From positions 1 through 32,052 of the forward strand of contig JAFGLH010000004.1 in NCBI GenBank assembly GCA_016928165.1: a stretch of 32,052 bases of DNA, read 5' to 3'. Numbering within the stretch: the stretch's first letter is position 1; every line of letters begins with the position of its first letter. This document shows positions 89 through 12,584 of the stretch, in pieces. The notes below the pieces were generated by a model that was given only the letters and a program-made list of their open reading frames with translations, was not told the DNA's origin and did not search any database. A program made the position numbers and the translations under genes. This DNA is from Pirellulales bacterium (GTDB lineage Bacteria; Planctomycetota; Planctomycetia; Pirellulales; Thermoguttaceae).

Positions 89-1528
89 TTAGTCGTCGAT
101 CTCGGAAGTCAGGCTGTACTTGCGCATCATGGCGTGGAGTTGGGTCCGCTGAATGCCCACGTCTTCGGCCGTCTTGGTGACGTTCCATTCGTTGCGTTCC
201 AGGGCGTCGGTCAAGAAGCCGCGTTCCAAATCTTGCACCACGGCGTCTCTTGCTTGCTGCTTGTATTGCTTGAAGGCTTCCCAAGTCCTGGGGATATCCG
301 TGGCCGCGGACCGAGGCACGGCCTCTCGGATTTCGGCGGGCAGATGGTGCAGTTCGATCCGCTCGGCGTCGCAGAGCGTGGCCACCCGCTCCACGATGTT
401 GCGCAGCTCGCGGACGTTTCCAGGCCAACCGTATGCTTCCATTCGGGCCATCGCCTCGGGGCTGAATCCGTCCACGTCGAGGTGGTTTTTTTTGCAGAAG
501 CGGAGGAGGAAGGCCGTGGCCAGCCGGGGCACGTCGCCGGCCCTCTCGCGCAGGGGGGGGACGTGGATCGGCAGGACTTTGAGCCGATAGAAGAGGTCCT
601 CGCGGAAGTCGCCTTCTTCGACCATTTCTTGCAAGTCGCGGTTCGTGGCGGCGATCAGTCGGATGTCTACTTCGTGCTCGGCGGTGTCTCCCACTCGTTT
701 AATCCGTCTGCTTTCCAAGGCCCTCAGCAATTTGCCTTGAGTCTCCATGCTGAGGTTTGCCACCTCGTCCAGGAAAAGAGTACCCAGATGCGCCGCCTCG
801 AACATCCCCTGCTTCGTGGCGATGGCGCCGGAAAACGAGCCTTTGACGTGGCCGAACAGTTCGCTTTCCAGCAGCGTGGGGGCCAGCGCGGTGCAGTCGC
901 AGGCGAGCAGCGGATGTCCCTTGCGCGGCGAAAGGCGATGGATCGCGCCGACGACCATCTCCTTGCCGGTGCCGCTTTCGCCGGTGACCAGCACGGTGCC
1001 GTCGGTCCGGGCCACGCGTTTGATCAGGGCGAAGACTCGTTCCATGGCCGGACTGCCGCCGATCATGCCCTCCAACCCTTGGTTCAGTTCCAGTTCGCTC
1101 CGCAAGGCGGCGTTTTCGCGGATGAGGGCCGTTCTTTCGGCCACCTTTTGGAGGACCATTCTCAGTTGATTGGGCGAGAAGGGCTTGCCGATGTAATCGG
1201 CCGCCCCTTGCTTCATGGCCTCGACGGCCGATTCGACCGTCGAGTGCCCGGTGACGACAACCACCTCCGAACCGGCGCCGGACGCCTTGACTTGCTTGAG
1301 TATTTCCATGCCGTCGATGCCGGGCATGACCATGTCCAACAAGACCACGTCGAAATGTCCCGTCAGGGCCGCTTCCAGCCCCGCCCGGGGGTCTTGGTGG
1401 CATTCCACTTGATGCCCCTCCGTCGCGAGGATCCGCTTGCACGCCAGGCCGATCACGGCTTCGTCGTCGATGACCAGTATCCTTTGCGCGAGATTGCGGA
1501 CGTCGTGGTCGGCTGGGATCGCGTTCAT
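89..1528 (-). CDS. NtrC-family sigma-54-dependent response regulator (bacterial enhancer-binding protein)
   Basis: A 479-aa activator with all three NtrC domains. The N-terminal receiver (about 15-130) has acidic residues D21/D22, phosphoacceptor D65 and the KP pair at K115. The AAA+ domain (about 155-385) has Walker A GESGTGKE (183-190), the sigma-54-contact loop as GSFSGA (230-235, a variant of GAFTGA), Walker B GTLFLDEV and the arginine-rich ATNRDL/FREDLFYRL region. A C-terminal Fis-type helix-turn-helix covers about 435-470. Its ATG overlaps the stop of the upstream sensor kinase gene by 4 bp (ATGA), so the two are translationally coupled and are a cognate pair. By established NtrC biology it would, when phosphorylated, bind an upstream site and drive a sigma-54 promoter. 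The one clear sigma-54 promoter in the window, at 3652-3667, belongs to the divergent hdr operon and is the inferred target. Confidence 0.95.
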   Translation of the reverse strand: MNAIPADHDVRNLAQRILVIDDEAVIGLACKRILATEGHQVECHQDPRAGLEAALTGHFDVVLLDMVMPGIDGMEILKQVKASGAGSEVVVVTGHSTVESAVEAMKQGAADYIGKPFSPNQLRMVLQKVAERTALIRENAALRSELELNQGLEGMIGGSPAMERVFALIKRVARTDGTVLVTGESGTGKEMVVGAIHRLSPRKGHPLLACDCTALAPTLLESELFGHVKGSFSGAIATKQGMFEAAHLGTLFLDEVANLSMETQGKLLRALESRRIKRVGDTAEHEVDIRLIAATNRDLQEMVEEGDFREDLFYRLKVLPIHVPPLRERAGDVPRLATAFLLRFCKKNHLDVDGFSPEAMARMEAYGWPGNVRELRNIVERVATLCDAERIELHHLPAEIREAVPRSAATDIPRTWEAFKQYKQQARDAVVQDLERGFLTDALERNEWNVTKTAEDVGIQRTQLHAMMRKYSLTSEIDD

Positions 1529-3372
1529 TGGTTCACCCGTCGGTTGCCGTCTTGGACCCCCGTCGTCGCGGCGGCGGGCAAGACGATGGAAAACTCAGTT
1601 CCTTTTCCTTCCGCGCTTTCCACTTCCATCGTACCACCGTGTTCCTGGATGATGCCATAGCTGACGCTCAAACCGAGGCCCGTCCCCTTGCCGACGGGTT
1701 TGGTGGTGAAGAAAGGCTCGAAAATTCGGTCCAGATGCTCGTTTTTGATTCCGCATCCGGTATCGGCGACCTTGATGAGAACGGATTCTTCGCCGGCCGA
1801 GGTGGCGATCGTCAGCGCGCCGCCCTTGGGCATGGCCTCGCAGGCGTTTAGACAAAGATTCAAGAGCACTTGCTGAAGTTGGTTCACGTCCCCGTCCACT
1901 TTCGGCAAGTTATCTTGAAGGCGTTCCTCGACGGAGATTTGTCGAAAGGCCTTCTGGTTGCCCAGCAACTGGAGCGTGCGCCCGATGACCGCGTTCACGT
2001 CGAGCGGTTCTTTGACCGCCGCCTTTTCGCGGGCGAAATCGAGCAGACCGTGGACGATTTCGCTGGCCCGCGTCGTCTCGTGGATAATCAACCCCAAGTC
2101 CTGCTTCGCCTGCTCGTCCAAGTCTTGCTTTTCCCTGAGCAGGTGCGCGAATGTGAGCACGCCGGTGAGGGGGTTGTTTATTTCGTGGGCCACGCCGGCG
2201 GCCAGTCGGCCAACCGCGGACAGCTTCTCGGAGACGCTGTGCAGTTGTTCGCTTTTTCTCAGCGTTTCCTCGGCCTTCATTCTTTCGGCGAATTCTTTTC
2301 TTTGCCCCGCCGCCGCCAGATTCAGCCGACGGTTGAGCCGCATTACATAGCCGGACACGGTCACGGCGGCGATCAGCAGCAGCGTCGCGCCCGCCACCGC
2401 GAACCAGTAGCGGCGGACCGCGGCGCTGAGGGTGACTTTGCCGTAATCCTTGTAGGGACCGATGCGCAATTCCTTCAAGCATTCGTGGACGGGCAGATAA
2501 TTCGGCGGGATCGTCCATCCGGCGCAGCGGGCGGCCCTCGCGGCGGGCAAATCGGGCAACATCCGGATCAAGGCAACGGCGACCGACTCGGCCAATTCGA
2601 CGGACGTGTCGTGTGCCTTCGCCAGCGGCCATTGGGGATACAACCGCGTCGAACGCAGAAAGGGGAAGGGGTCTTTTTCTTTGTCGGGTTGGCCGAGCAC
2701 CCTGAAATCATCAAGGCGTATTTTGCCTTCCGCCGCCATCCGCTCCAGCGTGTTGCTGCGGACCGTGCCCGCCTCCGCTCGGCCGTCCAGCACGGCATAA
2801 ACCGCCTCGTCATGCGTTTGGGCGAACTGCAAGTCCGCCAAATGGCGGCGCGGGTCGATGCCGCGCTCGTGCAATTCGCGCCACGCCATTTGCCAACCGC
2901 CGAACGAATCCTCGGCGACGGCCATGAACTTTTTGCCCTCCAGGTCTTCCAGCCGGCGGATGTCCTCGCGGTCACGGCGGCAGAAAATCACTCCCGCGTA
3001 AACCGTGCACACGTTGCCCAGACAGGAATCCTTCAACGTGGCGACCCTGCTCGCCCCGTAAAGCTGTTCCAACTCTATGAAAAGCGAAGGGTTCGCCAGA
3101 ACGAAATCCAACTCGCCGCGGGCAAACGCTGGGGCAACCTCGGTGTAGGCGAGCGGTATGATCTGGAATGTGTAACCGGGAACAATCGAGGTCAGATACT
3201 CGGCGGTGGGGCCCCATTGTTCGAGGCACTGCTCGGCGCCGCGGGGAGCCAGCACACCGATTCGCACCGTTTCGGAGTCGTTCGGGAAGCCGAAAACCAT
3301 TCCGGAAAAAAGAAGCCACATTCCCGCAAGCGCAGCCGCCAAGCGAGTCGAGAATCGTCGTTCATGAATCAT
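1525..3372 (-). CDS. Sensor histidine kinase with PhnD/TtrS-like periplasmic binding domain
   Basis: A 615-aa membrane kinase. The ATG at 3372 is preferred to an ATG at 3417 because it is followed directly by a signal-anchor (positive HERRFSTR, then hydrophobic 11-28). Residues about 35-305 form a PhnD-like (phosphate/phosphonate-binding, TtrS-type) periplasmic domain, recognisable from [10 protein letters not shown], the [12 protein letters not shown] block, [12 protein letters not shown] and the closing [23 protein letters not shown] block. A second membrane helix covers about 322-343, then a coiled linker, a HisKA helix with H396 in [11 protein letters not shown], and an HATPase domain with N, G1 (DTGCGI), F (FEPFFTTK) and G2 (GTGLGLS) boxes. 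The sensor domain is cysteine-rich (C49, C117, C122, C131, C283, C298), suggesting redox or thiol chemistry. It overlaps the NtrC-type regulator by 4 bp. TtrS senses tetrathionate, but the ligand here is unknown. Confidence 0.92.
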
Positions 3373-3403
3373 ATAAAAGTTTATCGTTCCAGTTGACCGC
3401 GAA

Positions 3404-3466
3404 GGGGTCCGTCCCATTTTCGCGTTGCACCGCGAAAATCGGGACAGCCCCCCGTGAACGGTTACG
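3404..3466. repeat. Inverted repeat of the GGGGACNGTCCC...CGCG family
   Basis: Arms 3404-3424 (GGGGTCCGTCCCATTTTCGCG, imperfect) and 3431-3452 pair across a 6-nt loop. The stretch 3431-3466 matches 26139-26174 with only 3 differences in 36 bases, so it is a dispersed element. It sits in the divergent control region between the kinase gene and the hdr operon, upstream of the putative activator site. Confidence 0.8.
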
Positions 3467-3481: not shown

Positions 3482-3506
3482 TGTAATGCCGCATATTACA
3501 CTGTAA
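3482..3506. promoter_or_regulatory. Candidate activator-binding palindrome (UAS) for the sigma-54 hdr promoter
   Basis: TGTAAT (3482-3487) and ATTACA (3495-3500) form an inverted repeat with a 7-nt spacer. A second, overlapping palindrome TTACA-C-TGTAA covers 3496-3506. The site lies about 150-170 bp upstream of the sigma-54 promoter and between divergently transcribed genes, one of which codes for an NtrC-type activator. This spacing is normal for enhancer sites of such activators. The sequence symmetry is seen; binding is inferred. Confidence 0.5.
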
Positions 3507-3651
3507 CGGCCGGCGATACACTTTTCGCGCAATTTCTCTTCGCATTGTACTGTCATTCTAAGCCGTTGCGTAGTCCGCGGACGAAATAAAAACGGTTGAT
3601 TTCCGCGGCAATTTTACATGCCCTCGCCGCATCGTCCGGGAAAAACTCAGA

Positions 3652-3667
3652 TTGGCACGAAGATTGC
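3652..3667 (+). promoter_or_regulatory. Sigma-54 (-24/-12) promoter of the response regulator-hdrCBA operon
   Basis: TTGGCACGAAGATTGC matches the sigma-54 consensus (YTGGCACGRNNNTTGC) at every fixed position, with the GG (3654-3655) and GC (3666-3667) elements correctly 12 bp apart. Transcription would begin near 3678, giving a leader of about 24 nt that contains GGAGGGA at 3688-3694 and the ATG at 3702. The promoter also rules out the longer reading frame starting at 3618. A sigma-54 activator is encoded next door on the opposite strand. Confidence 0.85.
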
Positions 3668-3701
3668 GTCTATCCGTTCAACGAACTGGAGGGACCAGGT
3701 C

Positions 3702-5333
3702 ATGTGCGACGCGCAAAAGACAAAATTGCTGGTGGTCGACGACGAGCCGATCATCTGTCTGGCTTGTCGAAGGGTCTTTTCCCGCCAAGGTTTTGAAGTC
3801 GAGGACAAGACCGACGCCCGGGAAGGTTTGCGTCTGGCGCTGGAGCAAGAATACGCCGGCATCCTCTTGGACATCAAAATGCCGGGGATGGACGGGATTC
3901 AGTTTCTCGAGGAATTGCGGAAGGTGAAGCCAGACGTGCCCGTGCTGATAATGACGGGCTATCCGAGCATTCCGAACGCGGCCGCGGTGGTCCGCTTGGG
4001 TGCCGCGGATTACGTGACCAAGCCTTTCACGCCCGAAGACATTACCCAGTCGGTGCTGAGAATGCTCGGCGCGCACAAGAGCAACGGCGACGGCATCCCG
4101 TCCGGTTCCCTGCCGGCGACGGTCGAGCCGGCGAAAAACCCTGAGCCGAGTCGCTTCGAACAGAGCGAATTGCTTTTCCTGGACGAAGCCTGGGTTCGAC
4201 CGGAAGAGGATGGGTCGGCCGCCGTGGGGGCAGTCCTGGCGAGGCAGCGGTACACGATGGTCGAGGCGGTCCGGCTTCCCCGCATCGGCGAGGTCGTCTA
4301 CCAGGGGTTGCCCTTGGCCGGGGTGGAGATGGCGGACAATTCGTTGTTGCTCATTCCCGCGGCCGTTTCGGGCGTCGTCGTCGGCGTAAACGAAGCCCTC
4401 AACGGCGATCCGTCCGCCATTTTCGACGATCCCTGCGGCGAGGGTTGGATCACCTGCGTTTGCACCACTCGCATGGACGAGGAGTTGGCGAGGTGCCGCC
4501 CGCGGCGGGTCATTCTGGCCACCAAGGACGAGACGTTCGCCAAACGCCGCGGCGAGCAACTCGCCTCGCTCGGCTGCCGGGTGGAAACGGTTGCCGACGG
4601 GGAGGCGGATTGGAGCTCATTCGCCCCAAAGGCGGACGATCCGCGGCGGACGGTGCTTCTGTTCGACGCGGATTCATTTGGAGAAGACGGACCGCAGTCG
4701 GTCGGCCGGGCCTGCCTCGCCTCGCCGTCGATGAGAATCGTGGTCGTCGCTTCCTCGACTTCCGAGTGGGAGGCGGCGTATCGCGAGCAGCGGATATTCT
4801 ATTACGCCGTCGAGCCTTTCGACGACGGAGAGATCGTCGAGATTCTCAACTCGGCGTTTCAGCGGCAGATCGAGCCGGCCCCGCCGCCGCAGCGTCACGC
4901 GGCCGCCCCGGAACCGATCGGCGGCGTCCGCACCACCAATCGGAACGGTCGGAAAGTACATTTGCTGGCCTCGCCGGCGATGTCGTGCGAACGCGGCGGA
5001 CTGGGGTGGCGGATAATGCGAAAGCTTACCGACCGCTCGCTGCCGGTCACCGCCACCAAGAATACGGCCGACGTTTCTCCCACAAACGTAGTCAAGGTGG
5101 CCGGCGGCTGCGATCGGGTGATGGTGCTCACCGTCGAGGACGCCGACCGGCTGCCCGGCGCGCTGATCCGCGACACCAAGGCCGAGTTCGGCTCGACCGC
5201 CGGAGAGAAGACCAGCCGCGTAACCACCCTGCAAGTGCAATCCGATCCGAGGAGCGCCGGTTTTCCGGCCCGGGACGGACGCTACACCGAGGCGCTGGCC
5301 GAACACATCGTCCGCGAAATGTTGTCCTACTAG
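3702..5333 (+). CDS. Multidomain response regulator: receiver, GcvH-like domain lacking lipoyl-lysine, degenerate second receiver
   Basis: A 543-aa protein, first gene of the hdr operon. The start at 3702 is fixed by GGAGGGA at 3688-3694 and by the sigma-54 promoter just upstream. Residues 7-122 are a canonical receiver (DDE 13-15, phosphoacceptor D57, T85, K107). Residues about 158-262 resemble glycine-cleavage H protein: EAWVR corresponds to HEWLR, then VGAVLARQ, IGEVVYQGLPLAG, AVSGVVVGVNEALNGDP and GEGWI. The stretch that normally carries the ESVKA lipoylation lysine is missing about 10 residues near 213-220. Residues about 268-388 look like a second receiver with D322 but EP instead of KP (E371), so probably unphosphorylatable. 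Residues 405-543 match no domain I recognise. There is no DNA-binding domain, so it probably acts by protein contact, perhaps with the Hdr proteins encoded 17 nt downstream. The domain calls are sequence-pattern judgements. Confidence 0.85.
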   Translation: MCDAQKTKLLVVDDEPIICLACRRVFSRQGFEVEDKTDAREGLRLALEQEYAGILLDIKMPGMDGIQFLEELRKVKPDVPVLIMTGYPSIPNAAAVVRLGAADYVTKPFTPEDITQSVLRMLGAHKSNGDGIPSGSLPATVEPAKNPEPSRFEQSELLFLDEAWVRPEEDGSAAVGAVLARQRYTMVEAVRLPRIGEVVYQGLPLAGVEMADNSLLLIPAAVSGVVVGVNEALNGDPSAIFDDPCGEGWITCVCTTRMDEELARCRPRRVILATKDETFAKRRGEQLASLGCRVETVADGEADWSSFAPKADDPRRTVLLFDADSFGEDGPQSVGRACLASPSMRIVVVASSTSEWEAAYREQRIFYYAVEPFDDGEIVEILNSAFQRQIEPAPPPQRHAAAPEPIGGVRTTNRNGRKVHLLASPAMSCERGGLGWRIMRKLTDRSLPVTATKNTADVSPTNVVKVAGGCDRVMVLTVEDADRLPGALIRDTKAEFGSTAGEKTSRVTTLQVQSDPRSAGFPARDGRYTEALAEHIVREMLSY

Positions 5334-5350
5334 CTAGTGAGAGGAGATCC

Positions 5351-5923
5351 ATGATAGCAATGCCGACCGACCAACGGGGCATGGCGTTTCTTGATGAAGT
5401 AATCGAAGAGGTCCCGGGGGGCGAGCGATTGTTGCACTGTCTGCAATGCGGCAGTTGCAGCGGCTCCTGTCCCAACGGGCCGGACATGGATTACACGCCC
5501 CGAAGCATATTCGCGCTGATAGCCGCCGGCCAGCGGGAGAAGGTGCTTTCGTCCAACACCATGTGGTGTTGCGTTTCCTGCTACGCCTGCACCACCCGCT
5601 GCCCTCAGAACATCCCCATCACCGACGTCATGTACGCCTTGAAGCGGATCTCGCTCCGCGAAGGGATGGCCACGGGGACCGACGCGCCGGCGTTGGCCAA
5701 GACCTTCACGGGCTTGCTGGAGCGGTACGGCAGGAGTTTCGAGCTTGGCCTGGCGAGCCGTTATTATTTGTTCAACAAACCCCTGAGCATGTTAAAGATG
5801 GGGCCGCTGGGGTTTTCCATGTTCACCCGGGGGCGGATGTCGCTGACGCCCACGCGGATTAGACAACTGGATCAACTGCACGCGATCATCGAAAAGGCAC
5901 GGCAATTGGGAGGTGCGACGTGA
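5351..5923 (+). CDS. hdrC: HdrC-like iron-sulfur subunit of a heterodisulfide reductase-type complex
   Basis: A 190-aa protein with two [4Fe-4S] ferredoxin motifs, CLQCGSCSGSC (C30, C33, C36, C40) and CVSCYACTTRC (C74, C77, C80, C84), then a helical C-terminus. This is the HdrC layout of a soluble electron-transfer subunit that passes electrons between HdrA and HdrB. The ATG at 5351 is preceded by GAGGAG at 5341-5346. It begins 17 nt after the response regulator and its stop overlaps the hdrB start by 4 bp (GTGA), so it is in the same operon. C73 next to the second motif is an extra cysteine. The physiological disulfide or thiol partner cannot be read from the sequence. Confidence 0.92.
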   Translation: MIAMPTDQRGMAFLDEVIEEVPGGERLLHCLQCGSCSGSCPNGPDMDYTPRSIFALIAAGQREKVLSSNTMWCCVSCYACTTRCPQNIPITDVMYALKRISLREGMATGTDAPALAKTFTGLLERYGRSFELGLASRYYLFNKPLSMLKMGPLGFSMFTRGRMSLTPTRIRQLDQLHAIIEKARQLGGAT

Positions 5924-6810
5924 AATATGCCTATTACCCCGGATGTTCGTTGGAAACGAGCGGCGCCGCCTACGACGTTTCGACTCGAGCGGTGGCGAAC
6001 CTGCTCAACCTGCATCTGGTCGAATTAGACGACTGGAACTGCTGCGGGGCCACCGAGTTTTTTTCCCAGGACGAGCTGACCGCCAGCGCGGTAGTCGCCC
6101 GAAACCTGGCCTTGGTCGGACCGGATTTCGACCAACTGGTCGCCCCGTGCACCGCCTGCTACCTCAACTTGAAGAAGACCGACCACCTGATGCGCGGCGA
6201 CAAAAAAATGAGCGATAAGATCAACGAAGCCTTGGCGGCCGGCGGCCTGAATCATCAGGCCGGCCGGGTCCAAGTGCGGCACCTGCTCGACGTGATACAC
6301 GCGGACGTCGGCGAGGCGGCGATCCGCGACAAGGTCGTCAGGCCGCTTAACGGACTGAAGGTCGCCTGCTATTACGGCTGTCAAATGGTTCGTCCCTTCA
6401 ACGACGTCGACGACTCGGAGCAACCGACTAAACTCGACGACGTGCTCGCCTGGCTCGAGGCCGAGCCGACCCATTTTTCCGCAAAGGCGTACTGTTGCGG
6501 CGGACACATGACGCAGATCAGCGAACCGCAGGCGTTCGAGCTTATCCGCCGTATTCTCCAGAACGCGGCCGACGGAGGGGCCGACATGATCGCTTGCCTT
6601 TGCCCCATGTGCCAGTTGAACCTGGACGCGTATCAAAGTCGGGTAAATCGCCACTTCCACGCCGACTTCCGAATGCCCGTCGTGTATTTCACCCAGTTGA
6701 TGGGATTGGCTTTCGGGGTGGAACGGAAAAAACTGGGATTCGGCAAGGAAATCGTCGCGGCCGGCCCGGTGTTGGAACGAAAACTTAGAACGCTTCAACA
6801 GGTCGGATAG
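5920..6810 (+). CDS. hdrB: HdrB-like CCG-domain subunit
   Basis: A 296-aa protein starting with GTG, overlapping the hdrC stop by 4 bp. It has two complete cysteine-rich CCG domains. The first has C9, C41-C42-G and C77-x2-C80. The second has C154, C192-C193-G and C228-x2-C231. In methanogen HdrB such motifs bind the noncubane [4Fe-4S] clusters that reduce the CoM-CoB heterodisulfide; in bacteria the substrate is usually another thiol/disulfide or unknown. All ligands of both clusters are present, so catalysis is plausible. It acts with the HdrC and HdrA encoded on either side. The 122-nt gap to hdrA is unusually long and holds two hairpins. Confidence 0.93.
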   Translation: MKYAYYPGCSLETSGAAYDVSTRAVANLLNLHLVELDDWNCCGATEFFSQDELTASAVVARNLALVGPDFDQLVAPCTACYLNLKKTDHLMRGDKKMSDKINEALAAGGLNHQAGRVQVRHLLDVIHADVGEAAIRDKVVRPLNGLKVACYYGCQMVRPFNDVDDSEQPTKLDDVLAWLEAEPTHFSAKAYCCGGHMTQISEPQAFELIRRILQNAADGGADMIACLCPMCQLNLDAYQSRVNRHFHADFRMPVVYFTQLMGLAFGVERKKLGFGKEIVAAGPVLERKLRTLQQVG

Positions 6811-6825
6811 AAGACGTAGACGCAG

Positions 6826-6846
6826 GTCGGGCGCCCCGTGCCCGAC
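6826..6846 (+). repeat. Hairpin 1 in the hdrB-hdrA gap
   Basis: GTCGGGC (6826-6832) pairs with GCCCGAC (6840-6846) around GCCCCGT. It is followed by ATG ACTC and not by a T-run, so it is not a classical terminator. It is related to the second hairpin 52 bp downstream: both share the TCGGG...CCCGACAT frame. Confidence 0.7.
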
Positions 6847-6878
6847 ATGACTCAATAACTAATTGTTCGTTTTTTTCA

Positions 6879-6897
6879 TCGGGTACCGGGTACCCGA
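6879..6897 (+). repeat. Hairpin 2 in the hdrB-hdrA gap
   Basis: TCGGGTACC (6879-6887) and GGTACCCGA (6889-6897) are perfect inverted arms around one base. Relative to hairpin 1, the C-G pair has become T-A at the matching stem position, a compensating change that keeps the pairing. It ends 35 nt before the hdrA ATG. Confidence 0.7.
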
Positions 6898-6932
6898 CAT
6901 ATGTAAAAGAATATTCCACGCGGAGAGCAACC

Positions 6933-9005
6933 ATGTCGGAGAAAATCGGAATATACGTTTGTCACTGCGGAAGCAACATCGCTGGAACGGTCGACGTGGA
7001 GGAGGTTGCCCGCTGGGCCGGCGAACGCATCGAAGACGTGGCCGTCGCCCGAGACTACAAGTTCATGTGCTCCTCGCTCGGCCAGCAGATGATCGAGGAA
7101 GACATCAAGAGCAAGGGGTTGACCAGGGTGGTCGTCGCCGCCTGTTCGCCCTCGCTGCACGAGAAGACATTTCGCCGGGCCTGTGAAAAAGCCGGGTTGA
7201 ACCCGTATTTCCTTCAGATGGCCAATCTCCGCGAACACGTTTCCTGGGTCACCAAGGACAAAGCGGAAGCCACCGCGAAGGCCAAGGCGCTGGTCTCCGC
7301 CGCCGCGGAGCGGGTAAAGCGCCATCGACCGCTGGAGCCGACTTTCGTCGACGTCAATCCGGCCACATTGGTCGTCGGCGGCGGCATCGCCGGCATCCAG
7401 GCGACTCTCGAACTGGCCAACGCCGGCTACCACGTCTATCTGTTGGAGCGCGAGCCGAGCATCGGCGGGCACATGGCGCAGTTCGACAAGACCTTTCCCA
7501 CGCTCGACTGCTCGGCCTGCATTCTCACTCCGCGGATGATGGAAGTGGGCCAACACGAAAACGTGACCCTGTTGACTTACTCCGAACTGGAGGAGGTGCA
7601 GGGTTCGGTGGGCAACTTCAAGGTGAAAATCCGCAAGAAGGCCCGATACGTTAACGAGGACTTATGCAACGGCTGCGGCATCTGCTCGGAAAAGTGTCCG
7701 ACGAAGGTCATCGACGACGCCTTCGAGGCCGGATTGGGACAGAGAAAGGCGATCTACACTCCCTTCCCGCAAGCGGTCCCCCGCACGCCGGTCATCGACG
7801 TCGACGCCTGCCGCTGGTTCCAACAGGGCAAGTGCGGCGTGTGCAAGAAAGTGTGCCCCGCCGAGGCCATCGACTTCGAGCAGAAAGACCAATTCGTCGA
7901 GTTGGAAGTAGGCAACATCATACTGGCAACCGGCTGGAAGATGTTCGATTGCAGCCGGCTGCCGCAGTACGGCTACGGCCGACTGCCGAACGTTTATACC
8001 AGCATGGAGTTCGAGCGGCTCTGCAACGCCGCCGGGCCGACCGGCGGGAAAATCGTCCTCCGCGACGGAAAAACCGAGCCGGAAACCGTGGCCATCATCC
8101 ACTGCGTCGGCAGCCGGGACGTGAAATGCAATTCCTACTGCTCCAACGTCTGCTGCATGGCCGCGCTGAAGTTCGGACATCTCGTCCTGGAGAAGACCGA
8201 CGCCGAGGTCTATTCCTTCTATATCGACATTCGCACGCCGCACAAGGACTACGAGGAGTTCTATCAGCGCCTGCTGGGCGAAAGAATGCACTTCATTCGC
8301 GGCAAGGTGGCCGAAGTGACGGACGCCGGCCGGGTCCCTTTCGAGAACGGCAAACTGATCGTACAGTGCGAGGACACGCTGCTGGGCCGCCAACGCCGCG
8401 TGCCGGTGGACATGGTGGTCTTGATGGGCGCGCTGGAGCCGCAGAGCGGCGCGGCCGAGTTGGCCCGCATCTGCGGCATCTCCCGCGGCGAAAGCGGCTG
8501 GTACACCGAGCGACACCCCAAGCTCGATCCGGTGGCGACGATGACCGACGGGGTGTTCGTGGCCGGGGTCTGCCAAGGACCGAAAGATATCCCCGCCTCG
8601 GTGGCCCAGGGCGCTGCGGCGGCCGCCCGCGTCCAGGGTATGATCGCTAAGGGAAAGGTGACCATCGAGCCGATCACCGCGCGGATCGACGAAGAGCGAT
8701 GCTCCGGTTGCCGCACCTGCAACGGACTCTGCCCTTACGGAGCCATCGAATACGACGAAGACAAATCGGTTTGCCGCGTCAACGCGGCATTGTGCAAGGG
8801 CTGCGGCACCTGCGCGTCGGCCTGTCCTGCCGGCGCCATCACCGCCGCCCATTTCACCGACGAGCAAATCTTTGCCGAGATCGAAGGCGCGCTGTGGGAT
8901 GCCGGCGGGGCGCCAGCGGTCGAGGCCGCGAGGCCCCGCGAAGGAAATGCGCCCCTGCAAAAACAGAGCTGGCCGACGGGCGAACCGGAACAGATTTCGA
9001 CGTAA
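6933..9005 (+). CDS. hdrA: HdrA-like FAD/iron-sulfur subunit of a heterodisulfide reductase-type complex
   Basis: A 690-aa flavoprotein. The N-terminal region (1-135) has the CxCG motif at C10/C12 and further cysteines C46 and C71. The FAD-binding Rossmann motif VVGGGIAGIQ starts near 147, with ERE and GGHMAQFDKTFPTLDCSAC (C193, C196) after it. Four ferredoxin-type cysteine sets follow: C245/C248/C251/C255, C293/C301/C304/C308, C590/C593/C596/C600 and C621/C624/C627/C631, plus the CVGSRD...YCSNVCC cluster region (391-408). GGAGAG at 6922-6927 supports the ATG. HdrA normally bifurcates or distributes electrons between ferredoxin and the HdrBC arm. No MvhD, FlxABCD, formate dehydrogenase or hydrogenase subunit is encoded nearby, so the electron donor is unknown. 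The last 45 residues are Ala/Pro/Glu-rich and probably disordered. Confidence 0.94.
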   Translation: MSEKIGIYVCHCGSNIAGTVDVEEVARWAGERIEDVAVARDYKFMCSSLGQQMIEEDIKSKGLTRVVVAACSPSLHEKTFRRACEKAGLNPYFLQMANLREHVSWVTKDKAEATAKAKALVSAAAERVKRHRPLEPTFVDVNPATLVVGGGIAGIQATLELANAGYHVYLLEREPSIGGHMAQFDKTFPTLDCSACILTPRMMEVGQHENVTLLTYSELEEVQGSVGNFKVKIRKKARYVNEDLCNGCGICSEKCPTKVIDDAFEAGLGQRKAIYTPFPQAVPRTPVIDVDACRWFQQGKCGVCKKVCPAEAIDFEQKDQFVELEVGNIILATGWKMFDCSRLPQYGYGRLPNVYTSMEFERLCNAAGPTGGKIVLRDGKTEPETVAIIHCVGSRDVKCNSYCSNVCCMAALKFGHLVLEKTDAEVYSFYIDIRTPHKDYEEFYQRLLGERMHFIRGKVAEVTDAGRVPFENGKLIVQCEDTLLGRQRRVPVDMVVLMGALEPQSGAAELARICGISRGESGWYTERHPKLDPVATMTDGVFVAGVCQGPKDIPASVAQGAAAAARVQGMIAKGKVTIEPITARIDEERCSGCRTCNGLCPYGAIEYDEDKSVCRVNAALCKGCGTCASACPAGAITAAHFTDEQIFAEIEGALWDAGGAPAVEAARPREGNAPLQKQSWPTGEPEQIST

Positions 9006-9190
9006 CCCCTTCTTACACAGTGCCTTACGTCAACGCATTCGCCGTCTGACGGTGCGCGCTTATTTTTCGCTTCCGCCACCGCCAAATATTTGTCGCATTC
9101 GCGGCCTTTTCCCCTAATTAAAATAGAGGGAAGGGCAGCTTCTCAATAAATACAGTTGCGAATCGCTTCTCTGGTGGGGGAAGGTTCATC

Positions 9191-9736
9191 GTGGCTCCAT
9201 CCAATCCATCCGACAACGACCAGCGGACTCTGCAATATCTGACCTTGCTCGGGCGTCACGAGCGGCGATTGCGGGGATATATTCTCGCGCTGGTGCCGAA
9301 CTGGGCCGACGCCGACGACATCGCGCAAGAGGTGAGAATCCGTCTCTGGGAACAGTTCGACGAATACGACCCGGCCAAGGATTTTGGCGCCTGGGCGCGG
9401 ACCATCGCCTACTACCAAGTGCTTACCCATCGCGAAAAGCAGTCTCGCCGCCAAAGCAAGATCAGCAGGCGGTGCGTCGAGCTGGTGGCCGAGGAGGCGG
9501 CCGCGATTTCCGCGGAACTGGACGCCGCCGAGCAAGCGCTGAAGGATTGCTTCGAGAAACTGCCGCAAGTGAAGCGCGATCTGTTGTTGCGCTACTATTC
9601 GGGCCGGTGGACAACCCGGGAAATCGCCGCCGAGTCGGGGCGGTCTTTCGACGCCACACGACAAGCCATCCTGCGCACCCGCTCGACGCTCCGAGATTGC
9701 GTCGAGGACGCCTTGCATAGGGAGGCAAGCCGATGA
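9191..9736 (+). CDS. ECF sigma-70 factor (Rhodopirellula/Verrucomicrobium-type)
   Basis: A 181-aa ECF sigma factor starting at GTG, with GGGGGAAGG about 7 nt upstream. Region 2 (about 15-85) contains DADDIAQEVRIRLWEQFDEYDP and ARTIAYYQVL, which bind core polymerase and the -10 element. Region 4 (about 125-175) contains LPQVKRDLLLRYYSGRWTTREIAAESGRSFDATRQ, which reads the -35. The stop overlaps the ATG of the FecR-type gene by 4 bp, the usual planctomycete arrangement in which the membrane protein encoded downstream controls the sigma factor. It probably transcribes the surface-protein genes that follow, but no repeated promoter motif was recognised to prove this. Confidence 0.9.
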   Translation: MAPSNPSDNDQRTLQYLTLLGRHERRLRGYILALVPNWADADDIAQEVRIRLWEQFDEYDPAKDFGAWARTIAYYQVLTHREKQSRRQSKISRRCVELVAEEAAAISAELDAAEQALKDCFEKLPQVKRDLLLRYYSGRWTTREIAAESGRSFDATRQAILRTRSTLRDCVEDALHREASR

Positions 9737-11565
9737 GCCGCAGACTATCGGACAACGCCGATTCGATCCGCCGCGAGGTTTATCGCCTGGGCGACGCGCT
9801 GCTGAGCGGGGCAATCACGGCGGAAGAAACCGAGCGGCTGAACGAAATGGTGGCCGAGGACACGGAGGCCAGGCGCTATTACGTCCGTTTTATGTACGAT
9901 TCGGCCGCTCTGAGCGAGTGGGGAAGAGACGCCTATGGCGGCGACTTCGTCGAACGCCCGCGCGACTCCGCAACTGAACGACCCTCCGATCCGTCGCCCC
10001 TCCCACCTCTCCCTTCTCCTCTCTCCGCTTCATTCATCGGCGGCCCGGTCTTTTCCTACATGGTCGCCTCGGTGGTCGTGTGTTTGATGCTGCTGGGGGC
10101 CTGGGCATACAAAATCAACTACGACCGCAACATCTTTATTGCCGATAGCCGCAACTTAACGACCTCCGGTCCGTCGGATCAATCGGAGTTGGTCTTCGTC
10201 GGCCGCGTCACCGGCATGAAAGATTGCCGCTGGGCCGATCCGGAATCGCCAACGATCGTCGGCGCCTCGGTCCCGCTGGATCGCAGCTACTCATTATCTT
10301 CGGGCCTAATGGAAATTGCTTACAACAGCGGCGCGAAAGTCATACTCGAAGGTCCCTGCTCGTACAAAGTCGAGTCCTCCGCCGGCGGCTTTTTAATGAA
10401 AGGAAAGCTGACAGCCAATATCAAAACTCAAAGTTCAAAGCCCAAAGCTCAAAGCTTGGACTCCCCTCCGCTCTCTACTCTCTACTCTCCACTATTCTCC
10501 ATCCGCACGCCGACGGCGATCGTCACCGACCTGGGAACCGAGTTCGGCGTCGAGGTGAACGAGAACGGCGATACCACCTCTCATGTATTCCAGGGTTCGG
10601 TGAAAGTCGAAATACTCCCCTCTCCCGCAAGCGGGAGAGGGGCCGGGGGTGAGGGCGGCATGGTGCAACTTGCCGCCGGCGAGTCGGCGCTGGTAAAAAA
10701 AACCGCGGCCGAAACTGTGCGTTTCACGCGCCCCGCAACACCGCCTACGTTCGTCCGCCGAATATACGAGCCGCCCAAGCTGATTGATCTGCTGGACATA
10801 GTCGCCGGCGGCGACGGAACAGGCCGCCGGCGCGAACGAGGCATCGATCCGACCACCGGAAAGCAGGACACCTATTTCCTGCCGACGCAATACCGATTCG
10901 AGAACCGCTATCATCTCGTCCAGTGGAACCGCCTGATCGACGGCGTGTGCATTCCCGACGGGCGGACCGAGCCGGTCGTGCTCGACTCGGCCGGCCACAC
11001 GTTCGCTGAGTTCGGCGAGCTTACCGAAGGATTAACCATCGGGCCGATCTGGGCACGCGAGGCCGACGTCAGCACGATCAATCAAAAAAGAACTCGGCAC
11101 GCATACATCTACACGATGGGCCGCGGCGATGAGTTCATGCCCGAGGATCGCGGATTGCTCGGCTTCCATACGAACAAGGGCATAACTTTCGATCTTCGAG
11201 CGATGCGCGAGGCGCACAAGGGAATACGCCCGTCGATATTCAAAGCGGTAATCGGACTGGCGGACGCATCGGTCGCCTACGCCGATCGTTTCGGCAAGGC
11301 CGACGTATGGATTTTCGTCGACGGTCGCCTTGCGTGGAAACACAGAGTGCACCAAGGCGAAAAGCCGGTCGCCGCCGAAGTCGAGTTAGGTCCCGACGCG
11401 CAATTTCTCACAATTCTGGGCACCAACGCCGGCGACGGCAGCTCCGGCGACTGGCTCGTACTCGGCGATCCCGTGCTGGAACTGGCCGAAACCGAAGCGG
11501 CGGTCTCCACAGACAACGGCAAGCAGGACGCTGAAAAGACGAACCATACGAAAGCGGAACACTAA
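9733..11565 (+). CDS. FecR-domain membrane protein with C-terminal NPCBM-like domain (putative anti-sigma/sigma regulator)
   Basis: A 610-aa protein. The N-terminal 70 residues form a short helical cytoplasmic segment, and a membrane helix covers about 106-127. The FecR-type beta domain follows (about 180-330: AYNSGAKVILEGPCSYKV, then IRTPTAIVTDLGTEFGVEV, then AAGESALV). The C-terminal part (about 440-595) resembles NPCBM carbohydrate-binding modules: RGLLGFHTNKGITFDL, FVDGRLAWKH and LVLGDPVLEL. Three low-complexity stretches interrupt it: Pro/Ser-rich 88-99 before the membrane helix, 232-255 inside the FecR fold, and 295-308, which is a translated copy of a dispersed DNA repeat. It overlaps the ECF sigma gene by 4 bp and is inferred to sequester or activate that sigma factor in response to an outside, possibly glycan, signal. 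Confidence 0.88.
   Translation: MSRRLSDNADSIRREVYRLGDALLSGAITAEETERLNEMVAEDTEARRYYVRFMYDSAALSEWGRDAYGGDFVERPRDSATERPSDPSPLPPLPSPLSASFIGGPVFSYMVASVVVCLMLLGAWAYKINYDRNIFIADSRNLTTSGPSDQSELVFVGRVTGMKDCRWADPESPTIVGASVPLDRSYSLSSGLMEIAYNSGAKVILEGPCSYKVESSAGGFLMKGKLTANIKTQSSKPKAQSLDSPPLSTLYSPLFSIRTPTAIVTDLGTEFGVEVNENGDTTSHVFQGSVKVEILPSPASGRGAGGEGGMVQLAAGESALVKKTAAETVRFTRPATPPTFVRRIYEPPKLIDLLDIVAGGDGTGRRRERGIDPTTGKQDTYFLPTQYRFENRYHLVQWNRLIDGVCIPDGRTEPVVLDSAGHTFAEFGELTEGLTIGPIWAREADVSTINQKRTRHAYIYTMGRGDEFMPEDRGLLGFHTNKGITFDLRAMREAHKGIRPSIFKAVIGLADASVAYADRFGKADVWIFVDGRLAWKHRVHQGEKPVAAEVELGPDAQFLTILGTNAGDGSSGDWLVLGDPVLELAETEAAVSTDNGKQDAEKTNHTKAEH
10427..10500 (+). repeat. YYCAAAG heptamer array plus pyrimidine tract inside the FecR gene
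   Basis: Four tandem 7-mers (CTCAAAG, TTCAAAG, CCCAAAG, CTCAAAG, 10427-10454) are followed by a CT-rich tract to 10500 with repeated CTCTCTACT. They are translated in frame as a Lys/Gln/Ser then Pro/Leu/Ser linker between the GKLTANI and FSIRTPTA strands of the FecR domain. Confidence 0.8.
10615..10656 (+). repeat. CCCCTCTCCCGC...GCGGGAGAGGGG repeat inserted in frame in the FecR gene
   Basis: A 42-bp unit with a CCCCTCTCCCGC/GCGGGAGAGGGG hairpin and a GC-rich tail. It is 41/42 identical to the reverse complement of 32011-32052 at the window end. Its length is a multiple of three, so it adds 14 codons (Leu-Pro-Ser-Pro-Ala-Ser-Gly... Gly-Glu-Gly) without a frameshift. Confidence 0.9.
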
Positions 11566-11639
11566 AAAACGCGATTTATTGCCGCATCGGCAAGAAAGGA
11601 GGAGCTATCAAAACGTTCGGCGGCTTTTCAATCGAATTT

Positions 11640-11653
11640 TTTCCGTACGGAAA
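11640..11653. promoter_or_regulatory. 14-bp palindrome in the leader of the LamG PEP-CTERM gene
   Basis: TTTCCGTACGGAAA is a perfect palindrome 44 bp before the ATG at 11697. It lies between an orphan ribosome-binding-like AAAGGAGG (about 11595-11602) and the real AAGGAG (11683-11688). It could be an operator or a small hairpin; no function is shown. Confidence 0.4.
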
Positions 11654-11696
11654 GAACTCCTTTTACTATTCATGTTTCCATCAAGGAGAACGAACG

Positions 11697-12584
11697 ATGT
11701 ATCTGAAGAAGCAGACTATTTGCACGGCGGGCCTGTGCGTGGCTTTGTTGTTGTCGTTTTGCGCGGCGGCAGTTCAAGCGGAGACGGTGGCCCACTGGCG
11801 GTTCGAGGATTCTCCCGGCTTCCTGGAGGACTCCGGTTCGAACAACATGGACCTGACCATTTACGACGGGGACAGCAATTCCGCCAACGATCCGACCCAG
11901 TATACGCTGCCGGAGACCGGCGCCGGGGCGTATTTTCCCAATCCGATCCCGCAAACCGGGGCGACAAACCTCGAAGGCGTCACCATCATTCACAACCACG
12001 ACGGGCTGACCGGCTTGGACAACGGCGCGCTTTCCTTTACGACCGGCTTCACCATCGAGGCCTTTTTCAATCGCGATACGCTGACCGACCACAGGACGGT
12101 CTACATGCAGGGTTATACCAGCGGCTCGACGGATAGAAACATTAACGTCGAGCTAAGAAAAGAAAAAAGGATCAGGTTGTCTTTGAGCAGCGACGGATCC
12201 GCCCTTACGACGGTCTACAGCGATTACAACGTCTACGACGACGACTACGACTACTTTTTGGCGGTGGCTTGCGACCTGAGCAATCATCAGGTGACCTTCT
12301 ACTTGAAGAATCTCACCGAGGATACCGCGCTATGGTCGCAGACCGTGGATCTCGGCGGCACCACGGCGTTTTCGCTGCACGATTCGTCGGCCAATTTTTA
12401 CATCGGCGCGTTTTTTGGCACGGCGAATTCGACCCTGAACGACGTGTTTGATGAAATTCGCATTTCCGACGTGGTGTTGCCGGAAAGCCAATTTCTGATC
12501 AACGTTCCCGAGCCGTCCACGCTGGCCCTGCTCGGTTGCGGTTTGATCGGACTGCTCGCATACGCTTGGAGGAAACGCAAGTAG
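11697..12584 (+). CDS. Secreted LamG-like PEP-CTERM protein
   Basis: A 295-aa protein. The signal peptide is residues 1-28 (KKQT, then a hydrophobic core ending AVQAE). A LamG/concanavalin-like beta-sandwich follows (about 30-262: VAHWRFEDSPG, TTGFTIEAFFNRDTL, FYLKNLTEDTALWSQ, NFYIGAFFG, FDEIRISDVVL). It ends in a PEP-CTERM sorting tail: VPEPSTLALLGCG, a hydrophobic helix, then WRKRK. AAGGAG at 11683-11688 supports the start. PEP-CTERM proteins are exported and processed by an exosortase, which is not in this window. The gene lies 131 nt after the FecR gene and is the first of three PEP-CTERM genes, so it is a likely member of the ECF/FecR regulon. The LamG domain suggests glycan or matrix binding, with no catalytic residues evident. 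Confidence 0.88.
   Translation: MYLKKQTICTAGLCVALLLSFCAAAVQAETVAHWRFEDSPGFLEDSGSNNMDLTIYDGDSNSANDPTQYTLPETGAGAYFPNPIPQTGATNLEGVTIIHNHDGLTGLDNGALSFTTGFTIEAFFNRDTLTDHRTVYMQGYTSGSTDRNINVELRKEKRIRLSLSSDGSALTTVYSDYNVYDDDYDYFLAVACDLSNHQVTFYLKNLTEDTALWSQTVDLGGTTAFSLHDSSANFYIGAFFGTANSTLNDVFDEIRISDVVLPESQFLINVPEPSTLALLGCGLIGLLAYAWRKRK

Follow-up and report, generated by a model that had tools for sequence, protein, structure and literature searches.

A four-domain response regulator with a lysine-less GcvH-like domain, encoded with Hdr-type genes in Pirellulales, as a candidate docking subunit for redox complexes

Introduction

Hdr and HydABC complexes carry out flavin-based electron bifurcation, on which anaerobic energy metabolism centrally depends. 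We know of no account of these enzymes being controlled directly by two-component phosphorylation, and the open literature that we searched yielded none either. M52 enzymes act in hydrogenase maturation; we know of no requirement for an M52 protease in HdrCBA or in [FeFe] hydrogenases.

The protein described here resembles several known systems, each in part of its length. With GcvH it shares fold, sequence and canonical hairpin length, and differs in that its GcvH-like domain lacks the lipoyl lysine and the ExxK motif, lies between receivers and is encoded with hdr genes. LbpA of the sHdr systems is likewise a GcvH-like protein encoded with Hdr-type genes; in it the lysine is strictly conserved, and two cysteines close to the protein ends are conserved as well (PMC6067878). 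LbpA is a small, free, lysine-bearing protein, whereas ours is a signalling protein of 543 residues encoded beside an HdrA2-like HdrA of 690 residues. PleD (REC-REC), the best multi-domain Foldseek hit, has in common with it a receiver and a degenerate second receiver; in our protein a GcvH-like domain stands between the two, and the last domain is M52-like rather than a cyclase. The M52 proteases HycI and HybD are homologs of that C-terminal domain, which differs from them in having lost the metal ligands and the His-bearing loop and in being fused to a response regulator. All four domains are of known families; their combination, and the use proposed for it, are not described in the open literature searched (subscription papers were mostly outside this search), in which we found no account of this protein.

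Results

A four-domain response regulator

The window, by which we mean the whole stretch of DNA analysed, is 32,052 nucleotides of contig JAFGLH010000004.1 from a Pirellulales bacterium (Thermoguttaceae; assembly GCA_016928165.1). The gene of interest (3702..5333, + strand) encodes a response regulator of 543 aa with the order receiver (REC), GcvH-like domain without a lipoyl lysine, degenerate REC and M52-like domain. Its start at 3702 is backed by a ribosome-binding site (GGAGGG, 3688-3693) and by a sigma-54 promoter ending at 3668; a start codon at 3618 was discarded because it lies upstream of that promoter. The full-length structure was predicted with AlphaFold2 from a 28-row alignment (mean pLDDT 83.7). 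A sequence-only reading of this DNA had proposed a receiver fused to a GcvH-like domain, and profile matches agree (PF00072 at residues 10-118, followed by PF01597 at residues 162-260). It did not include the approximately 270 residues beyond the GcvH-like domain, which form two more domains.

The first receiver (3729..4055, + strand) matches PF00072 with 102.8 bits, and in the model of the full protein it aligns by VIA-align with 3crn at a Z of 22.5 (rmsd 1.1 over 125 residues). The acid pair, phosphoacceptor Asp, Thr/Ser and Lys of response regulators are all found in it, as D13, D14, D57, T85 and K107, and are invariant in 28 homologs. Judged by these residues, this receiver is probably competent for phosphorylation.

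The second receiver (residues 268-392; 4503..4877, + strand) is recognizable by comparison with the family's own first REC (hhalign probability 96.1, E 3e-9, the E-value here and for the M52-like domain below being that of a single comparison), and its profile matches PDB receivers with a best E of 2.9e-7. It has kept an Asp at the phosphoacceptor position (Asp322) and has lost the acid pair and the lysine.

The C-terminal domain (residues 404-543; 4911..5330, + strand) gave nothing significant in sequence searches of PDB and Pfam. When it was modelled alone (pLDDT 83.6), HycI/HybD-type [NiFe]-hydrogenase maturation proteases took Foldseek ranks 1-7 (best E 3.2e-3, probability 0.98), and hhalign against eight M52 sequences gave a probability of 96.1 (E 3e-9), with unrelated controls at or below 2.2. 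By VIA-align the domain reached Z 7.1 with amidases against 6.2 with HycI, and structural similarity by itself would not single out M52. Taken with the profile comparison, these matches point to homology with peptidase family M52. The metal ligands, which we take to be those of HybD, are not kept: GGLG stands in place of DDGVG and LTVED in place of VDA, and the His loop is missing.

Read at the level of residues, the protein would consist of one active receiver and three retired scaffolds, the GcvH-like domain, the second REC and the M52-like domain. In these three the carrier, phosphoacceptor-site or protease chemistry is lost and the folds remain. Most likely the three folds once bound redox-enzyme partners or the maturation substrates of such enzymes.

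A complete GcvH-like hairpin without its lysine

The GcvH-like domain (residues 162-260; 4185..4481, + strand) is identified by PF01597 (GCV_H; 47.3 bits in the 543-aa protein against a Pfam cut-off of 22.2, E 2.3e-12) and by a match of the family profile to PDB GcvH structures at E 2e-14, as had been proposed from the sequence. Its pLDDT in the AlphaFold2 model is about 91-95 over most of its length. The proposed absence of the lipoyl lysine also stands: Asn213, whose codon lies at the hairpin tip (4338..4340, + strand), occupies the lysine column of an alignment with 40 canonical GcvHs. The canonical sequences have K in 40/40, by construction, as they were chosen by their ExxK motif; among the 28 homologs the column holds K in ten, G in four, S in three, N, Q, A and E in two each, and R, D and T in one each. 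The informative part of this comparison is the gap-free alignment and the free variation across the family. None of the 28 homologs has the ExxK motif.

A further claim of the sequence-only reading, that the hairpin is shortened by about ten residues, is contradicted by the residue counts, the alignments and the model. The stretch between LP..G and the VN that follows the hairpin is 39 residues long in our protein and 38 in the canonical GcvH of the same genome, and the family profile matches solved GcvH structures over its full length, with a single inserted residue at the hairpin. Structure prediction and superposition on GcvH had been proposed as checks. The prediction shows a complete hairpin, with full strands at 204-210 and 215-220 and a tight turn, ADNS, between them. 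VIA-align with the full model listed matches that were all led by the receiver, with no GcvH superposition among them. Lipoylation of the 543-aa protein at the usual site therefore seems unlikely because the residue for attachment and the ExxK around it are missing, and not because the hairpin is lost.

No gcvH model was among the best 25 of the 101 NCBIfam families matched by the protein, and the lysine-less relatives that were scored fall below the TIGR00527 cut-off. The only other GcvH match in the same 3.6-Mb draft genome is canonical and lysine-bearing; there is no second lipoyl GcvH. Many family members have a cysteine in the motif DPCG (4431-4442 in the window), where GcvH has a tyrosine (DPYG); this cysteine, near the C-terminal end of the GcvH-like domain, could serve redox chemistry or bind a metal.

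Regulatory sequences and the neighbouring kinase

The putative sigma-54 (-24/-12) promoter, TGGCACGAAGATTGCG (3653..3668, + strand), holds the sole exact TGGCAC-N5-TTGC in the window (3653-3667), where 0.04 are expected, and this site precedes the start codon by 49 bases. An element scoring 14-15 of 15 is present in 19/27 upstream regions of the family, compared with 0.4% of shuffled regions (shuffled by mononucleotide; two or three of the 27 come from a genome already represented). About 150 bases upstream of the promoter lie two TGTAW-N9-WTACA dyads, TGTAATGCCGCATATTACA (3482..3500), a candidate enhancer for an NtrC-type regulator, and TGTAACGGCCGGCGATACA (3502..3520). Upstream of family genes there are six such dyads, at 5/29 loci, and 0.13 would be expected from the rest of the same loci; the pattern was picked after inspection of these regions, which makes the p-value of 6e-9 optimistic.

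Divergent to the operon are genes for a histidine kinase with a PhnD-type periplasmic sensor (1525..3417, - strand) and for an NtrC-type sigma-54 response regulator (REC-AAA-Fis; 89..1528, - strand). An NtrC-type regulator is found near the family gene, often with its kinase, in 18 of the 25 loci that have at least 3 kb of upstream sequence. On the simplest reading of these sequences, the NtrC-type regulator would drive the hdr operon that contains the four-domain gene.

The sensors of these kinases vary. On the conserved kinase core, ten relatives have a single-Cache sensor, in most cases with HAMP, and the kinase of the window has a PhnD-type, TtrS-like one, a case of sensor swap. At three loci (L043, 1436-3478, - strand; L125; L126) a histidine kinase fused to an [FeFe]-hydrogenase-like domain is encoded beside the family gene, a putative H2 or redox sensor.

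Association with Hdr-type and related redox enzymes

Eight bases downstream of the four-domain gene begins hdrC (5342..5923, + strand; TIGR03290, 84 bits, under the cut-off of 160), which overlaps hdrB (5920..6810, + strand; TIGR03288, 193 bits, under the cut-off of 345; PF02754) and is followed by hdrA, encoding a 690-aa HdrA2-like protein (6933..9005, + strand; NF040770, 832 bits, under the cut-off of 1100). The placement beside hdrCBA that had been read from the sequence is thus confirmed. The comparison with LbpA that accompanied it fails, as the protein has no lysine, the genome no second lipoyl GcvH, and the 690-aa HdrA is HdrA2-like. The sHdr context includes a lipoate ligase, whereas the neighbours here are the kinase, the NtrC-type regulator, hdrC, hdrB and the 690-aa hdrA. 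Membership in the LbpA/sHdr group was discarded for want of the lysine and for the different gene context, and we regard the analogy as weak. Directly after hdrA, positions 9191-12584 hold a sigma-factor-like gene, a FecR-like gene and a gene for a secreted protein with a PEP-CTERM-like end, which, read by sequence, look like an unrelated module.

Across the family, hdrC lies directly downstream at 14 loci, 13 with full hdrCBA and one cut by a contig end; they include L050 and four more from the same phylum as L050 (L121-L124). Three other loci have an HdrC/B-EtfB-EtfA-HdrA cluster near the family gene, and at L053 MvhD/FlpD follows hdrA. The [FeFe]-hydrogenase gene for HydA is nearby in four loci (L043, L047, L055, L126). 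Eleven loci with several kb of downstream sequence have neither Hdr nor HydA genes near the family gene.

Two gene fusions connect these signalling domains to redox subunits. At L055 (447-2720), in a third lineage, a single protein of 757 aa joins the four domains to a NuoE-type [2Fe-2S] domain (PF01257, E 2.5e-45), and NuoF-like and HydA genes follow; the locus may encode a HydABC enzyme that has its response regulator built in. At L092 (- strand), from another planctomycete, REC, GcvH-like and HdrC domains share one 455-aa frame (TIGR03290, 118 bits; PRK01202, 93 bits), again lacking the lysine; this fusion carries the short REC-GcvH form and not the four-domain form. The surrounding locus, L110, has the order kinase, NtrC-type regulator, REC-GcvH, REC-GcvH-HdrC (6701-8068, - strand), HdrA-like genes and MvhD. 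The fusions to HdrC and to the NuoE/HydC-type subunit are two independent cases. A glutamate-synthase-like reductase is also encoded at L110.

Within the bacterial family of the source organism, window-type HdrA (about 75-84% identical, genomes being assigned to type by these identities) occurs in 14/15 genomes with the four-domain protein and in 4/22 without it (Fisher p 7e-6, from counts uncorrected for relatedness or for genome completeness). The protein and this HdrA are encoded on different contigs in several genomes. Two high-quality genomes, G013 and G025, have window-type HdrA and lack the four-domain protein, which is therefore not an obligatory Hdr subunit. A specific link to [FeFe] hydrogenase was discarded despite the presence of HydA at some loci, as the corresponding counts are 12/15 and 19/22 (Fisher p 0.67). 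The link to Hdr is supported as real and broader than one window.

Spread of the family and of lysine-less GcvH-like domains

The four-domain family has at least 28 members, with full-length identities of 31-56% to the 543-aa protein. Of 37 genomes from the same bacterial family, 15 have a homolog, the source genome included, and a scan of 84,980 species genomes gave 25 loci. The named relatives are mostly Pirellulales and Thermoguttaceae metagenome assemblies; others come from a phylum that includes a MAG labelled Deltaproteobacteria, and from an Oligoflexia MAG (MAG labels may be wrong). The family is conserved in Pirellulales and at least two other lineages. At L042 an extra receiver and membrane-helix-like sequence are encoded upstream of the family gene and in frame with it (8504-9355); the fused reading may be a gene-calling artefact.

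The four-domain family belongs to a wider class. Of the GcvH-like domains that we collected, 63/102 lack ExxK, and these include the four-domain family, short REC-GcvH proteins and membrane-anchored forms. In a FastTree tree of 101 domains the lysine-less ones cluster, with two exceptions, in a clade separate from the lysine-bearing GcvHs (support 0.84). For so short a domain this is moderate evidence that the lysine may have been lost once, in a common ancestor.

Membrane-anchored lysine-less proteins are encoded at L112, L113, L118 and L119, often two per locus; at L113 they stand behind HmcB/HmcC-like genes, a kinase/NtrC-type pair and an archaemetzincin-like gene. An open frame of 623 residues at L120 (17368-19236) is Cys-rich in its N-terminal part and ends in a lysine-less GcvH-like domain.

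Discussion

The make-up of the intact and degenerate domains, together with the fusions, suggests a phospho-switched docking protein acting on Hdr-type complexes. We consider it an evenly balanced proposition that the four-domain protein is a phosphorylation-controlled docking subunit for such complexes, served by the same kinase that activates the operon. The output of this response regulator would then be a string of docking modules derived from redox-enzyme partners in place of DNA binding. The membrane kinase would sense an extracellular signal and phosphorylate the NtrC-type regulator, which would switch on the sigma-54 promoter of the operon; the same kinase would also phosphorylate the receiver of the four-domain protein. 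Phosphorylation could alter the docking of the modules on HdrCBA, or in relatives on Hdr-Etf or HydABC-type complexes, and the altered docking might gate or redirect electron flow at the protein level. Three steps here are inferred: phosphorylation by the neighbouring kinase, physical contact with Hdr, and the sign of the effect. A broader version, which we offer tentatively, is that the widespread non-lipoylated GcvH-like class serves as an adaptor from signalling to redox enzymes, a kinase gating Hdr, Hdr-Etf, HydABC-type or HmcBC-type electron flow directly, through the attached receiver and by docking, in parallel to its sigma-54 output.

Other roles have to be weighed against this. The protein might act only within the signalling module, as a connector or a sink for phosphate; by tuning the kinase and the NtrC-type regulator it would feed back on operon transcription. 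The regulator accompanies the family gene at 18/25 loci, as regularly as the hdr genes do, and is present where no hdr is near (for example at L037, L038, L042, L054 and L057), and a REC with a degenerate REC is a typical pair of signalling parts. We nevertheless think this rather unlikely, as the fusions to HdrC and to a NuoE/HydC-type subunit and the co-occurrence with HdrA would be unexpected for a pure connector, and a four-domain protein looks overbuilt for a sink. Alternatively, the protein might be a factor for assembly or maturation, its GcvH-like and M52-like modules gripping subunits of Hdr or hydrogenase while cofactors are inserted and letting them go under the control of phosphorylation. 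This role would fit the kinship of the C-terminal domain with enzymes that mature hydrogenases, and the position of the gene as first in its operon. Its prospects are poor in view of the missing M52 metal ligands and His loop, the lack of any M52 requirement known to us in HdrCBA or [FeFe] hydrogenases, and the two genomes that have window-type HdrA and manage without the four-domain protein.

The ten homologs with K at the hairpin tip raise the question of whether some members still bear a cofactor or modification there, which would make the domain another kind of carrier and the window copy a recent loss. We consider this improbable: the other residues in the column are those of an unconstrained turn, ExxK is absent throughout, and neighbouring lysine-less subfamilies are equally varied. 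That three of the four domains are degenerate might even suggest a functionless relic or a chance fusion, but an architecture conserved at 31-56% identity in at least 28 members from at least three lineages, with conserved sigma-54 promoters, makes that scarcely credible.

If the docking reading is true, bacteria may switch electron-splitting redox enzymes on and off directly by phosphorylation. Given the family, its promoter and the fusions, this idea can be tested in vitro with few proteins. The four-domain protein also shows the fold of a lipoate carrier re-used in signalling as a module that carries nothing.
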